Source: Rubripirellula sp. (lineage in GTDB: Bacteria > Planctomycetota > Planctomycetia > Pirellulales > Pirellulaceae). From it: a DNA stretch of 64,000 nucleotides. The notes under the pieces are model-generated. The model did no database searches and had not been told where the DNA came from. It worked only from the letters and a program-made list of their open reading frames with translations. Positions 17,493-21,848 of this stretch are shown piece by piece (positions within the stretch are counted from its first letter, which is position 1; each line of letters begins with the position of its first letter). The translations under genes were made by a program, and so were the position numbers. The stretch spans positions 1 through 64,000 of the forward strand of contig JAAXJB010000048.1 of assembly GCA_012270065.1 (NCBI GenBank), in the 5' to 3' direction.

Positions 17493-18404
17493 ATGTCGGA
17501 AAGCGTTACGATTGATGATACTTTTGCCGAAGCATTTCCGATGCGCGGCACACGTCTTATCATCACTGCTGCGGATGCCGAACTGGCAGAGATCGCCGCT
17601 GGCGAGTTTTGCGGCAATGCGTCCAGCGTCATTGGATGTGATGCTGAAGCAGGAATTGAGCGGCGCTTAAACAGCGAAGAAACCGTTGACGGTCGCCCCG
17701 GGGTCGCTGTGCTGGCATTCGCTTTTGATCGTGATTCATTGGAAACCGCCGTTGCCGCGAGGGTTGGCCAGAATGTTCTGACCTGTCCCACGACTGCCTG
17801 TTACGCCGGTTTGCACGCCGACTTGAAGAAGGATCGAATCAAAGTTGGCGCGCAGTTGCGTTTCTTTGGGGACGGTTTTCAGTTTTCAAAGAAACTCGAG
17901 GATCGGCGGTTCTGGCGGGTGCCTGTCATGGACGGCGAGTTTTTATGCGAAGATGTGGTGGGAACAGTCAAGGGTATCGGCGGCGGGAATCTGCTGGTCT
18001 GCGGACGGTCACAGAGGGAGACGTTGGTCGCCGTACGGGCAGCAGTGGCAGCCATTGACAGGATTCCCGAAGTGATCATGCCGTTCCCCTCGGGGATCGT
18101 TCGTAGCGGGTCCAAAGTCGGGTCCAAATACAAACCACTGAAAGCCAGTACCAATGACAAGTGGTGTCCAACATTGCGAGGCCAGACCGAGACATCGCTG
18201 CGGGATGGAGAACACGCCGTTTATGAAATCGTCATTGATGGCCTTTCGGAACAGGCCGTGACCGATGCGATGTCGGCTGGGCTTCGTGCTGCCGCCGAAT
18301 CACCGGGAGTCATGCGAATCTCGGCAGGGAATTATGGCGGTAAACTGGGGCCACATCATTTTCATTTACGCGACTTGGAAAGCGGAACTTCCGCTTCCCA
18401 GTGA
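17493..18404 (+). CDS. fhcD: Formylmethanofuran:tetrahydromethanopterin formyltransferase (Ftr/FhcD)
   Basis: 303 residues, the family's usual size. It moves the formyl group between H4MPT and methanofuran (or its analogue). N-terminal DDTFAEAFPM and RLIITA, central GDGFQFSKK and VMDGEFLCE, and C-terminal GNYGGKLGPHHFHL match the cytoplasmic Ftr family. It opens the C1 locus: fwdD, fwdB and fwdC follow on the same strand, although a terminator-like hairpin lies between fhcD and fwdD. In methylotrophs FhcD sits inside an FhcABCD complex; here the gene keeps company with FwdD, a subunit found in true formylmethanofuran dehydrogenases. Confidence 0.95.
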   Translation: MSESVTIDDTFAEAFPMRGTRLIITAADAELAEIAAGEFCGNASSVIGCDAEAGIERRLNSEETVDGRPGVAVLAFAFDRDSLETAVAARVGQNVLTCPTTACYAGLHADLKKDRIKVGAQLRFFGDGFQFSKKLEDRRFWRVPVMDGEFLCEDVVGTVKGIGGGNLLVCGRSQRETLVAVRAAVAAIDRIPEVIMPFPSGIVRSGSKVGSKYKPLKASTNDKWCPTLRGQTETSLRDGEHAVYEIVIDGLSEQAVTDAMSAGLRAAAESPGVMRISAGNYGGKLGPHHFHLRDLESGTSASQ

Positions 18405-18774
18405 AAGGTTCTCTGGTTTCGCAGGACGGAGCAAAGAATCAGCCGTTGGGGAGCAACCATCACGGCATGTGCCGCGGAGTCACTGCCCAGAGTGTCTGGT
18501 CGCAGGCGGCAGGGGCATGAACCCCTCAGGGTTCATGTGCAAGATTCGTTTCTTTTTTGCAAGACAATCGGCAAATTCCGATCATGCTAAAGAGTAACAA
18601 GTCAGCATGGCGATGAACTCAGCATGACCTGCTCCTGAGTCGTCTGCTTTCGGGGAATTTACTCCTGAGTTGCTTGACTCGGGAGATCCGGCCCCGTGAT
18701 CAGCATTGCGGCAGGATCAACTCGTTCTCTAAAATCAGCTGTCCTGTTTTATCATCACCGTGAACGAGCCTGAC
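18405..18774. other. Intergenic region between fhcD and fwdD
   Basis: 370 bp with a hairpin plus T-rich tract at 18516-18558 and an imperfect repeat of ctcctgagt around 18636-18665. No gene is recognised. A promoter for fwdD is expected but not clear. Confidence 0.5.
18516..18558 (+). terminator. Probable terminator of fhcD
   Basis: CATGAACCC (18516-18524), loop ctca, GGGTTCATG (18529-18537) form a perfect 9-bp hairpin. A T-rich stretch (tttctttttt, ending about 18556) follows about 10 nt later, further than in a textbook intrinsic terminator. Confidence 0.5.
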
Positions 18775-19140
18775 ATGTCCGCAAAACGCTATCTCCTCAA
18801 CCCGATGCGAACAGCCAAGCAGGGTGTGCATGTGAATGTGGGGAAGGATGGGGATGAGTACATTGAAATCACGACGACATTGTCGATACACGTAGATGAT
18901 ATGGCCGAAATTGGGGTGTCTGATGGTGACCGCGCGTTGGTGAAAACCGAATTCGGTGAAGCCGAGTTCACGTGCCAGACGGCGAAAGTTCCACCGGGAA
19001 TGATCTTTGTTCCTTACGGTCCGCCAACGTGCCAGTTGATGGGAGGCGATACCGATGGCACAGGCATGCCAACAAGTAAAGGCTGGGAAGTTGAAATTAC
19101 GCCTTTGGGCGAAGCGAATTCACAAGTCATAACAGAGTGA
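18775..19140 (+). CDS. fwdD: Formylmethanofuran dehydrogenase subunit D (molybdopterin-dinucleotide-binding)
   Basis: 121 residues from ATG 18775 (GTG 18760 in frame is possible). It fits the FwdD/FmdD family, the small beta-barrel subunit that helps hold the W/Mo bis-molybdopterin guanine dinucleotide cofactor. Signature: GMIFVPYGPP (75-84) and DTDGTGMPTSKG (92-103). In archaeal enzymes the first motif reads close to PxGPWAN, so the PPTCQL sequence here is a variant. The non-redox FhcABCD complex of aerobic methylotrophs has no such subunit, so its presence argues for a cofactor-bearing enzyme. Its stop overlaps a GAGG ribosome binding site for the 50-codon ORF that follows, which suggests translational coupling. 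Confidence 0.88.
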   Translation: MSAKRYLLNPMRTAKQGVHVNVGKDGDEYIEITTTLSIHVDDMAEIGVSDGDRALVKTEFGEAEFTCQTAKVPPGMIFVPYGPPTCQLMGGDTDGTGMPTSKGWEVEITPLGEANSQVITE

Positions 19141-19150
19141 GGTTTTCATC

Positions 19151-19303
19151 ATGAGTCAGAAAAGTGATTTTGGCAGTGAGGATTCACCTCACTTTCAATT
19201 ACCACAGCAGGATGACGAAGTGGTTGCGTGGCAGGAGGTCGAGGAGGGGCGTTTCATGCCACAACGCGTCCGGGGCAGTTGTCAGGGACGCGCCCTTGGC
19301 TGA
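19151..19303 (+). CDS. Small ORF of 50 codons between fwdD and fwdB, function unknown
   Basis: ATG 19151 to TGA 19301-19303 encodes an acidic then basic 50-residue peptide ending in RGSCQGRALG. A good Shine-Dalgarno (GAGG, 19138-19141) overlaps the end of fwdD with about 9-nt spacing, which is why I list it. I do not recognise a family. It lies in the same frame as fwdB, separated by two TGA codons (19301, 19418), but fwdB has its own conserved start and ribosome binding site at 19475. It could be a real subunit-like peptide, a leader, or chance. Confidence 0.4.
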   Translation: MSQKSDFGSEDSPHFQLPQQDDEVVAWQEVEEGRFMPQRVRGSCQGRALG

Positions 19304-19474
19304 ACGTTTACTGTGAAGTCGTCCAGTTCGGATGACAAGGACCCAGTCGCCAGTAATGACGTCGAGAATAGCCGTTCGCAGGATTTGATCCGGGGCGAGC
19401 TGGATCGAACTGACAAGTGATGTCGTTCTGCCGGGTGTCAGTACCCAATCTTTGTTTACTCCCAGGAAAAGCTG

Positions 19475-20812
19475 ATGGATTTGAAAGTCATTGATAATGC
19501 GACTTGCACCTTTTGTGGGTGTGTGTGTGATGACATTCAGTTGCACGCTGATGAAAACCGTATTCATCAGGCGAAGAAAGCGTGTGTACTTGGCAAAGCC
19601 TGGTTTTTGAATCACACGGCAGAACGCAAATATCCTGATGCTTTGATCGATGGCCACGAAGCAACACTGGATGAGGCGATCGAGGCAGCAGCCGATCATC
19701 TCTACAAGGCTGACATGCCTCTGGTTTATGGGATGAGTAATACTACCTGTGAAGCCCAACGCGAATGTGTTGAGATGGCGGATCATCTGGGAGGCTTGCT
19801 GGATAGTCACACCTCTTTGTGACATGGCCCCACCGAAATCGCTGCCCAGTTGGGTGGCAAAGTGACATGCACGCTGGGGGAAGTGAAGAATCGTGCTGAC
19901 TTCATTGTTTATTGGGGCGGTAATCCGGCGGAATGCCATCCACGCCATTTCACCAAATACACCCTGATGCAGAAGAGCAGGTTTTTGCCACGGGGCCGGA
20001 AAGACCGCACCATGGTGCTGGTTGATATTCGGGAAACCAAAAGTGTGAAAGCAGCAGATGTCTTTTTGCAGGTTCGGCCCGGTAAAGACTTTGAATTGAT
20101 CACCATTCTAAGGGCAATGATCAAGGATCAGCCAATCAGCGATGCGCAGTTGGCCGAAACTGGCCTGACTCGGGAACAATTGCAGGACTTTGTGACTCGA
20201 ATGAAAGCTGCAAAATTCGGTGTGTTTTTCTTTGGCATGGGATTGTCCATGACACGCGGCAAACACATGAATTCTGCAGCTTTGTTGACTCTGGCTGCCG
20301 AGTTGAATGCCTTCACCAAATTCGTTGCCATGCCCATGAGGGGACATGGCAATGTCACGGGAGCTGATGTGATCATGCGTTGGCAAACAGGCTACCCTTT
20401 CGGCATTTCCTTCAATCGTGGGTACCCACGATACAACCCGGGTGAGTTCTCGACCGTTGATGTTCTGGTTCGAGGTGATACCGACTGCAATTTCATCATC
20501 GGTGCTGATCCGGGGGCGACGATGCCAAAGCCCGCGATCGAACACCTCGCGAGTGTCCCCACCATTGTGCTTGATCCGCATGTAACACATACCAGCAAGT
20601 TGGCCCGCGTGCACATCACAACGGCACCGGCAGGTATATCAGCACCGGGGACCGCTTATCGGATGGATGAGATACCGATGCCATTGCGCCCTGCACTTGA
20701 GTCGCCATATCCAAGTGACGAGGAAGTTGTGAGGAGAATCAAGGAGACGATTCTGAAAAAGCCGGACTGGATGGGTGAGCGACCCCAGATGTTGACATCT
20801 CAGGTTGGGTGA
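19475..20812 (+). CDS. fwdB: Formylmethanofuran dehydrogenase subunit B, predicted selenoprotein (UGA at codon 116)
   Basis: 445 residues if the in-frame TGA at 19820-19822 is read as selenocysteine. The start is ATG 19475 with AGGAAAA at 19464-19470. The N-terminus has the FwdB [4Fe-4S] motif CTFCGCVC (residues 11-18) followed by DD. Residue 116 is the expected W/Mo ligand; archaeal FwdB has Cys (Cys118 in Methanothermobacter) or Sec there. Here the codon is TGA followed by HGP, as in E. coli FdhF. The same frame continues for 329 more codons with family-like sequence (VYWGGNPAECHPRH, MPMRGHGNVTGAD), which argues against decay. A 7-bp hairpin beginning 18 nt after TGA fits a bacterial SECIS. 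Fwd reduces CO2 to formylmethanofuran or runs in reverse. The alternative is a Cys-to-stop mutation or sequencing error. Confidence 0.88.
19841..19858 (+). promoter_or_regulatory. Candidate bacterial SECIS element in fwdB
   Basis: GCUGCCC (19841-19847) pairs with GGGUGGC (19852-19858), with two G-U pairs, closing an AGUU loop (19848-19851). The hairpin starts 18 nt after the UGA and its loop lies 26-29 nt after it. Bacterial SECIS elements sit within about 16-37 nt and carry a conserved G (GU in E. coli fdhF) in the loop for SelB. The loop GU is present here. No energy calculation was possible. Confidence 0.6.
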
Positions 20813-21029
20813 CCAGGGCAGGATCAAGTCCGGCCTGTCGCGGAATCCGTTTCTTTGAAGTGGAATTCAGGAAGCGGGCGTGACTGTCCATGAGCTTGTA
20901 TCCGCGGGGTCGAAAGCCCGATAAGTTTCCAGACAGGCAAGTTCCAAGTGTAGAGTTTTAGGCAGTAGCAAGTATCCCGAGGCATACCACCCATCCCGTC
21001 GTCACGGCGTTTTTGAAAGTTGCGTTTGC

Positions 21030-21848
21030 ATGAACAAAATCAAACTCACCCTGAGAGAGGCTCCCAAGGTTGTTTTGGAGTCGGAAGTCATCACGCCCGA
21101 TCGATTCCTCGATCAATCCAATGAAGAAATCCGGGCCAGCGTCGTTTACCACGGTAAACGTCAGAAAAGACTGGATGATTTTTTCGATGTCGACGGGGAA
21201 CGCAGTGACCACATCGACATTCACGGTGACCTGACCCGTGTCCGGCACATCGGCAGGGGGATGACTCGTGGGTCAGTTACCATTCATGGTGATGTCGGGA
21301 TGCATCTGGGGGCCATGATGAGTGGTGGTGCCATCGAAGTTCACGGCAATGCCGGCGACTGGGTAGGTGGTGAGATGAAAAACGGCAAGATTCACATTCA
21401 CGGAGATGCCGGACAGCAAGTTGGAGCGGCGTATCGTGGAAGCGTGATCGGGATGCGGGGTGGAACGATTCTGGTTGATGGGGATGCCGGCATCGAAGTC
21501 GGGATGAGAATGCGACGGGGACTGATCGTGATTGGTGGCGCTGCACGCGACTTTGTGGGGCTGCAAATGAAGGGTGGCACCATCATCCTGTGTGGTGGCG
21601 CAGAGATCCGGACGGGCGCTTGGATGCAGCGAGGCACGATCGTCTCGCTCAAACAACTGGCATTGATGCCGACATTCGCTGAATGTGGCGCCTTCAATCC
21701 GACGTTCTTGAATGTTTATGCTCGCCATCTCGATCAACTTGGCATCAAACTTCCTTATGCCGAGGAACAAGGCAGGTATCTCCGTTACAGCGGTGACAGG
21801 GGAGTTCCTGGAAAAGGCGAGATTCTGATCTGGGAGCCAGTCGGCTGA
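21030..21848 (+). CDS. fwdC: Formylmethanofuran dehydrogenase subunit C
   Basis: 272 residues. The centre (about 75-205) is a run of short repeats of the G-x-x-G-x-x-x-G type (GDVGMHLGAMMSGG, GDAGQQVGAAYRGS, GDAGIEVGMRMRRG), the right-handed beta-helix of FwdC/FhcC and glutamate synthase domain 3. In archaeal Fwd this subunit scaffolds subunits A and B. It follows fwdB by 217 bp on the same strand. No fwdA (amidohydrolase-like subunit) is found in this window, so the complex needs a gene elsewhere. Confidence 0.93.
   Translation: MNKIKLTLREAPKVVLESEVITPDRFLDQSNEEIRASVVYHGKRQKRLDDFFDVDGERSDHIDIHGDLTRVRHIGRGMTRGSVTIHGDVGMHLGAMMSGGAIEVHGNAGDWVGGEMKNGKIHIHGDAGQQVGAAYRGSVIGMRGGTILVDGDAGIEVGMRMRRGLIVIGGAARDFVGLQMKGGTIILCGGAEIRTGAWMQRGTIVSLKQLALMPTFAECGAFNPTFLNVYARHLDQLGIKLPYAEEQGRYLRYSGDRGVPGKGEILIWEPVG

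Follow-up and report, generated by a model that had tools for sequence, protein, structure and literature searches.

The fwd operon of a planctomycete, Rubripirellula sp., very probably makes two selenoproteins: a selenocysteine (Sec) form of FwdB, the catalytic subunit of a true formylmethanofuran dehydrogenase, and a small protein that would be its dedicated partner. This reading was reached through sequence comparison, starting from a stretch of 64,000 nt (here called the window; contig JAAXJB010000048.1 of assembly GCA_012270065.1, positions 1 to 64,000, forward strand). All the genes concerned lie on the + strand. They comprise ftr/fhcD (17493..18404), encoding the formylmethanofuran:H4MPT formyltransferase (TIGR03119, 417.7 bits with a cut-off of 292.6); fwdD (18760..19140), encoding the molybdopterin-dinucleotide-binding subunit (PF01568, 41.1 bits with a cut-off of 26.8; 75.5 bits to NF042908 FwdD, under that model's cut-off of 175); the predicted small selenoprotein gene (19151..19420); fwdB, also named fmdB (19475..20812); and fwdC (21030..21848; TIGR03122, 263.7 bits with a cut-off of 130.65). 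Between the last two is a gap (20813..21029) without fwdA, a gene that sits downstream of fwdB in 65 of 80 named loci, as counted within the stretch available for each locus.

The operon copy of fwdA appears to be decaying among the close relatives of the window: it is absent from the window and from locus L156, internally shortened in L154 (5457-6766) and present as remnants in L155, with L149 (1498-3132) as a further locus bearing on its decay or replacement. A full-length fwdA is found elsewhere in the same genome (contig C71), beside a gene resembling a ZigA-type zinc-chaperone GTPase that scores 599.4 bits, narrowly under the model cut-off of 600. The operon gene may thus have been replaced by a zinc-limitation paralogue.

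Sec-containing FwdB is already known from bacteria, including a planctomycete. The original prediction held it to be undescribed there, a claim that has to be withdrawn: the available text of PMC4807772 (2016) reports fmdB as a selenoprotein in planctomycete P2 (Rhodopirellula) and in two unclassified bacteria, and that of PMC13188914 (2026) marks the FwdB selenoprotein family as both bacterial and archaeal. As far as PMC4807772 describes it, the P2 case resembles the present one in being a bacterial Sec-FwdB in a planctomycete with an fmdD-fmdB operon and full Sec machinery. However, its gene order is fmdD-fmdB-fmdA-fmdC, whereas the operon in the window has no fwdA and carries a putative second selenoprotein gene between fwdD and fwdB. 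Archaeal Sec-FwdB, such as that of Methanopyrus kandleri, shares with the window protein the TIGR03129 family, the UHxP motif and Sec at the W/Mo ligand position, judging from the available parts of PMC13188914 and PMC4807772. What was not found in the literature searched is the conservation of Sec-fwdB, accompanied by a bacterial SECIS element, in a large number of planctomycete genomes, its link to FwdD and the Sec machinery, or the small Sec-linked gene.

The in-frame TGA of fwdB

The fwdB frame (19475-20812) comprises 445 codons and closes with a TGA at 20810-20812. Its sole internal TGA is codon 116 (19820-19822), and His-Gly-Pro comes next. When this codon is read through, the product scores 494.9 bits against TIGR03129, where the cut-off is 327.8, and spans positions 1-420 of the 421 in the profile. 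It also aligns with a solved FwdB chain, 5t5i_B, over residues 5-426 of 446, and codon 116 falls on Cys118, the metal ligand. Three parts of the original prediction are thereby borne out, namely a single in-frame TGA at codon 116 followed by HGP, a family-like frame beyond it, and its placement at the metal-ligand position. A second solved chain of the family, 9sfi_Q, has an X at the Sec position and is possibly the structure of a Sec-containing FwdB. Elsewhere in the genome, two further molybdopterin enzymes match PF00384, neither with an internal stop.

Orthologues were collected from 147 genomes, the window's own included, 92 of which have a match to TIGR03129 over the cut-off. In 37 genomes such a copy carries exactly one TGA, always at codon 116 and in the context DSHTSL-TGA-HGP (DSHSSL in one row); the other 36 copies are 73-95% identical to the FwdB of the window. 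An alignment at codon 116 had been proposed as a check on the prediction, and it gives TGA in 37/37 copies as well as in 80/80 named loci, the latter being the best 80 of 418 stretches encoding relatives and overlapping with the first set, as they come partly from the same contigs. The remaining matches over the cut-off were also fetched, together with 16 weaker or partial ones under it. Rows with Cys at the ligand site mostly read DTTTSVCHGP (about 52-57% identity) or DTTASxCH (about 39-45%), and some rows of the family have neither Cys nor Sec there. Cys homologues (SVCHGP) thus align at the Sec position of fwdB, as the usual selenoprotein test asks. A tree built quickly from 125 rows (64 with Cys, 37 with Sec and 24 other) places the 37 Sec rows and one row without Sec (L103) in a single group with an SH-aLRT of 100, the tool having warned of long branches outside this group. 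Two partial copies near the Sec group, L147 and L148, end short of codon 116.

We give almost no credence to the TGA being a Cys codon changed by mutation or sequencing error, or the mark of a pseudogene. One base separates TGA from TGC and TGT, and Cys paralogue clades of FwdB do exist; yet every one of the TGA copies and named loci has the same codon, no Cys codon stands at the site in rows of the Sec clade, and the sequence beyond it is under purifying selection. In 10 of the 14 other copies from the same genus, dN is 0.018-0.099 before the TGA vs 0.036-0.090 after it, with dS >1 or saturated. Scattered stops in close relatives, which would have spoken for a decaying gene, do not occur: apart from the gene ends, the 37 aligned Sec rows have no further in-frame stop. 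The TGA of fwdB is therefore best read as Sec, a reading supported by comparative sequence data, and the proposal of a Sec-containing Fwd in this planctomycete gains support from the Sec machinery described below, from the TGA of the orthologues and from these uninterrupted frames.

The trait extends beyond the close relatives. In a phylum-wide sample of genomes at least 85% complete, 11 of 391 have an over-cut-off match carrying one TGA, of which seven belong to different families within the class and two fall outside it; for the 9 of these 11 that are not among the 147 genomes, a TGA was counted at any codon position. Records titled Acidobacteria gp6 (L227), Candidatus Kuenenia (L200) and Phycisphaeraceae (L197) also carry Sec-fwdB, and these may reflect transfer or else mis-named or mis-binned genomes. 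Among weaker matches of the phylum sample (about 60-75 bits), several longer frames resembling molybdopterin oxidoreductases also have one internal TGA and are probably Sec formate dehydrogenases.

SECIS-type hairpin and probable decoding machinery of fwdB

Bacterial SECIS elements can be recognized by four rules given in the available part of PMC13188914: a loop of 3-9 nt with G in one of the first two places, a stem of 4-16 bp, a spacing of 16-37 nt and an MFE <= -7.5. The hairpin downstream of the fwdB TGA (19841..19858, + strand) satisfies all of them, with an AGUU loop, a stem of 7 bp, a spacing of 25 nt and an MFE within the limit. Loop and MFE hold in 37/37 Sec rows and 80/80 named loci, and one of the 7 stem pairs is broken in 6/37 and 8/80, respectively. 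The hairpin lies within the coding frame, in contrast to archaeal SECIS elements, which the available text of PMC1088965 places in 3' untranslated regions.

Synonymous conservation gives further insight into this region. Scored over 267 columns in the 37 rows with Sec, the six strongest windows all begin between codons +4 and +9, counted from the TGA. In the stretch from -8 to +25, single codons with z >3 are -1, +8, +9, +10 and +20, and of these, -1 and +20 are conserved equally strongly though they lie outside the hairpin. In 39 Cys rows (SVCHGP), all scorable codons from +7 to +12 have z <1. Codons +6 to +13 of the Sec rows fold with a mean MFE of -12.65 kcal/mol vs -8.17 under synonymous resampling (mean z -1.32, with z below -1 in 23 of the 37), and the same region of the Cys rows gives -3.23 vs -4.07 kcal/mol. 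When 105 windows were scored on every second Sec row, the one starting at +5 was the most over-stable. Folding of single sequences over the hairpin region gave nothing unusual (z 0.48, -0.65 and -0.31) and was set aside as evidence for a SECIS, and the fwdB hairpin offers no compensatory support because the changes in its stem sit on one side only. The Leu codon before the TGA was considered as a functional element and rejected: it is TTG in 37/37 Sec rows, but CTT, CTC and TTA also occur in the 80 named loci. Codon 136 (19880-19882), which is the +20 codon, encodes Glu as GAA in 37/37 Sec rows, a case of strong synonymous constraint outside the hairpin.

The genome of the window (122 contigs) contains selA, selB, selD and a tRNA-Sec, the genes whose presence the original prediction had asked to be looked for. 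SelB scores 296.7 bits (cut-off 242.25), SelA, whose gene adjoins selB, 515.6 bits (cut-off 267.9), SelD 259.9 bits (cut-off 125) and the tRNA-Sec 70.8 bits, with the anticodon tca according to ARAGORN; the same program found no tRNA in the 64-kb window. For counts across genomes, tRNA-Sec was accepted at >=62 bits, a threshold of our own, instead of Rfam's 47, which 107 of the 147 genomes pass. The listed scores form two groups, >=62 and <=59, and the lower group was taken as other tRNAs. SelA over its cut-off and a tRNA-Sec of at least 62 bits occur together in 31 of the 37 TGA genomes; 2 have SelA only, 3 have tRNA-Sec only and 1 has neither, although this last genome (81% complete) does have SelB. 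The four TGA genomes in which SelA is under the cut-off or absent are all 81-86% complete. In genomes at least 90% complete, SelA is present in 28/28 with the TGA vs 41/93 others, a comparison among related genomes in which Fisher values are not to be taken literally. SelA is also over the cut-off in 46 of the 50 named TGA genomes examined (50 of the 80), and SelB is found in 8/8 TGA genomes examined vs 0/6 without the TGA. Five genomes of the same genus that are 99-100% complete and have no FwdB over the cut-off (G001, G003, G012, G018 and G021) show no tRNA-Sec at 62 bits, and neither SelA nor SelB reaches its cut-off in them. These same five retain a full-length FwdA.

Decoding of the UGA as Trp or Cys by near-cognate read-through, and not as Sec, would as such account for open frames. 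We consider this very improbable, given that two SECIS-type hairpins lie at SECIS distance (the second is described below), that the TGA co-occurs with SelA, tRNA-Sec and SelB, and that Table 1 of PMC13188914, in its available form, lists the family as an experimentally verified selenoprotein.

The small gene between fwdD and fwdB

A second conserved in-frame TGA (19301..19303, + strand), absent from the original prediction, lies in a small ORF just upstream of fwdB. When TGA is translated as Sec, the predicted gene (19151..19420, + strand) encodes a protein of 89 residues, the 51st being Sec, and stops at a TGA at 19418-19420; its start codon is our choice. The ORF was found by tblastn in 77 of the 80 named loci. 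It is coding, judging from its variation, because heterozygosity before the UGA is 0.159, 0.153 and 0.592 at codon positions 1, 2 and 3 in the 63/80 loci fitting a strict motif. A profile built from 64 motif-bearing rows (these 63 loci and the window; threshold E < 1e-3) matches the small ORF in 78 of 81 (the 80 named loci and the window), a count that is partly by construction. The profile also finds it in 36/36 rows with Sec-fwdB, which overlap with the named loci, in 0/36 rows with Cys-fwdB and in 0/40 other loci, and the motif search alone gives 32/36, 0/36 and 0/40. Among the named loci, L188 in the complete genome (CP036526.1) of the planctomycete isolate K23_9 has both Sec-fwdB and the small gene.

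Could the ORF be an ordinary protein of 50 residues ending at the TGA? This candidate was overturned by the uniformity of the codon, which is TGA in 78/78 profile-matched loci and 36/36 Sec rows; among the complete stops of neighbouring genes in those loci, TGA accounts for 34/73 in fwdD, 39/63 in fwdA, 33/52 in fwdC and 31/79 in fwdB. Alternatively, the ORF may truly stop at the UGA as a leader peptide, with the UGA and its SECIS acting as a selenium sensor that tunes translation of fwdB downstream. We regard this as unlikely, if worth keeping in view. The small ORF does lie just upstream of Sec-fwdB and is found only with it, and little open frame follows the UGA (the next stop is 11-54 codons on), part of it dictated by the hairpin. 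However, a protein motif is conserved before the UGA, codon +2 after it is Phe in 78/78 loci with silent changes (TTC 43, TTT 35), codon +5 is Pro in 68/78, the extended frame ends in mixed stop codons (TGA 35, TAA 29, TAG 14), and the distance from the small gene to fwdB varies between loci.

The favored reading, in which the UGA encodes Sec, is consistent with the RNA that follows it. In the window, the hairpin (19318..19336, + strand) satisfies the four bSECIS rules, with an AGUUC loop, a stem of 7 bp and a spacing of 21 nt, and the stretch from nt 11 to nt 46 past the TGA has a folding energy of -11.2 kcal/mol. The MFE is <= -7.5 in 76/78 loci and misses the energy rule in the other 2. A best-stem search puts the start of the loop 18-22 nt after the UGA in 76/78, and at least 4 of the 5 inner pairs form in 78/78 when each row is given whichever of two registers pairs best. 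Pairing reaches 94.7% of cells, compared with a shuffle mean of 87.3% (0/500 shuffles as high) and 26-55% for slid partners, and 57 cells have compensatory double changes, compared with a shuffle mean of 19.5 and a maximum of 30. Two of four covariation measures failed against shuffles, namely double-change pairs (5, matched by 72/500) and extra pair types (11, matched by 83/500). The apical signature is mostly (A/G)GU(U/C) on a CC-GG type of stem and resembles the fwdB hairpin. A scan of the 64-kb window, on both strands and with no shuffle control, for a TGA with such a hairpin returned these two sites only.

Alignment of 26 translated copies, out of 74 that are complete, reveals an invariant W, G-R, P, R, G-S, G and L-G-Sec-x-F, and the predicted peptide over the Sec reads GRALG-Sec-TF. 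The protein has no match in Pfam, NCBIfam (E <= 10), PHROGs, PDB or plasmids. An AlphaFold model (pLDDT 62.7, pTM 0.25) is mostly of low confidence with one short strand pair, so the protein is predicted to be mostly without confident structure, with its Sec in the C-terminal half. No Cys homologue was seen among the loci compared (best E 0.26 in the 36 Cys rows and 1.7 in the 40 others), which counts against a small selenoprotein because a Cys homologue is the usual selenoprotein test. Table 1 of PMC13188914, stated to hold 119 families or subfamilies, also includes several small, uncharacterized ones, and none of those in the available version matched when compared by name or motif only. The literature found does not name the gene; coverage near the subject is thin, and the S9 Table in the supplement of PMC4807772 may list it. 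Taken at the level of sequence, the small gene is read as a second selenoprotein tied to Sec-FwdB. It probably represents a selenoprotein family not described before, whose members are small, at about 60-100 residues, share the motif G-R-[FY]-x-P-x-R-x-[RK]-G-S-x-x-G-x-x-L-G-Sec-x-F, and are encoded between fwdD and fwdB as a strict partner of the Sec-type formylmethanofuran dehydrogenase in Planctomycetota.

Probable type of enzyme, and one lineage without Sec

In the FhcABCD complex of methylotrophs, homologues of FwdB, FwdA, FwdC and Ftr act in H4MPT-linked C1 metabolism. Subunit B of formylmethanofuran dehydrogenase can be told by the Cys or Sec ligand, the His next to it, the iron-sulfur cysteines and the Arg and His of the MRGH motif. 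All of these are found in the FwdB of the window, along with a partner FwdD (PF01568). All 37 Sec rows, without exception, keep Sec, His117, five N-terminal cysteines and both the Arg and the His of MRGHGNV. The roles of these residues are drawn in part from the available text of PMC11656701. FwdD is encoded adjacently in 35/36 Sec rows, 28/36 Cys rows and 0/20 rows with neither ligand, and among 20 additional rows (16 Cys and 4 ligand-less) it is adjacent in just one, a Cys row; the flanks compared differ in length between these sets. The lone Sec row without an adjacent FwdD, L047, begins near a contig end. A homologue of fwdD is stated in the available part of PMC5020050 not to be present in Planctomycetes, whereas it is present in this one. 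A second planctomycete clade of Cys-type FwdB (L255-L269, mostly DTTASxCH) has the Cys ligand, and FwdD is not adjacent in these 15 loci.

These features bear on whether the complex could be an Fhc-like formyltransferase/hydrolase scaffold without redox chemistry, which we think improbable. In its favor, 24 of the 125 rows in the FwdB-family tree have neither Cys nor Sec at the ligand site, and the FhcB of methylotrophic bacteria has no metal cofactor according to the available text of PMC10100899, which counts 149 bacterial FwdB representatives. Yet the window protein and its Sec relatives keep the ligand, the FeS-type cysteines and the MRGH residues as well as FwdD. Sec-type FwdB would thus be a redox enzyme, and the ligand-less forms would be Fhc-like.

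One genome (G073, 99% complete) may illustrate a change from the one type to the other. Its fwdB (L103/L234) sits inside the Sec group of the tree without Sec: there is a three-residue gap at Ser-Leu-Sec, HDL stands for HGP and MPGHGNV for MRGHGNV, and the cysteines of the FeS motif are retained. The region of the hairpin is weakened (-5.6 kcal/mol), and the fetched flanks contain fwdA and fwdC and neither FwdD nor the small ORF. SelB is not found over the cut-off, the best tRNA-Sec match (E 4.5e-7) is below the listed scores, and a SelA-like match of 259.9 is slightly under the cut-off of 267.9. On these comparisons, this would be the only lineage found in the Sec clade without Sec decoding; it has a degraded SECIS and lacks the small gene, the Sec ligand, the Arg of MRGH and an adjacent FwdD.

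In the proposed mechanism, the mRNA after the UGAs at 19820-19822 and 19301-19303 can form SECIS-type hairpins with apical loops 25 and 21 nt downstream, and SelB with Sec-tRNA would decode both UGAs as Sec. On the protein side, the Sec of FwdB would ligate a bis-pterin centre of W or Mo that is held together with FwdD, and for that reason the complex would be a true redox formylmethanofuran dehydrogenase, as opposed to the cofactor-less formyltransferase/hydrolase of methylotrophs. Formyl groups would most likely be oxidized to CO2 in the H4MPT/methanofuran C1 pathway, a direction we infer. The small selenoprotein would most likely serve Sec-FwdB as a dedicated partner, with possible roles in maturation, in Se/S handling at the metal site or in redox protection.

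Sec-FwdB can thus be viewed as a conserved trait under selection that many planctomycete genomes share, with a bacterial SECIS inside the reading frame. Gene-calling programs for which TGA is always a stop would therefore cut the catalytic subunit short. The putative small selenoprotein, seen with the Sec form only, offers a handle on what a Sec-ligated W/Mo site needs compared with a Cys-ligated one, and the lineage without Sec decoding is a natural experiment in how a redox dehydrogenase may turn into an Fhc-like scaffold.
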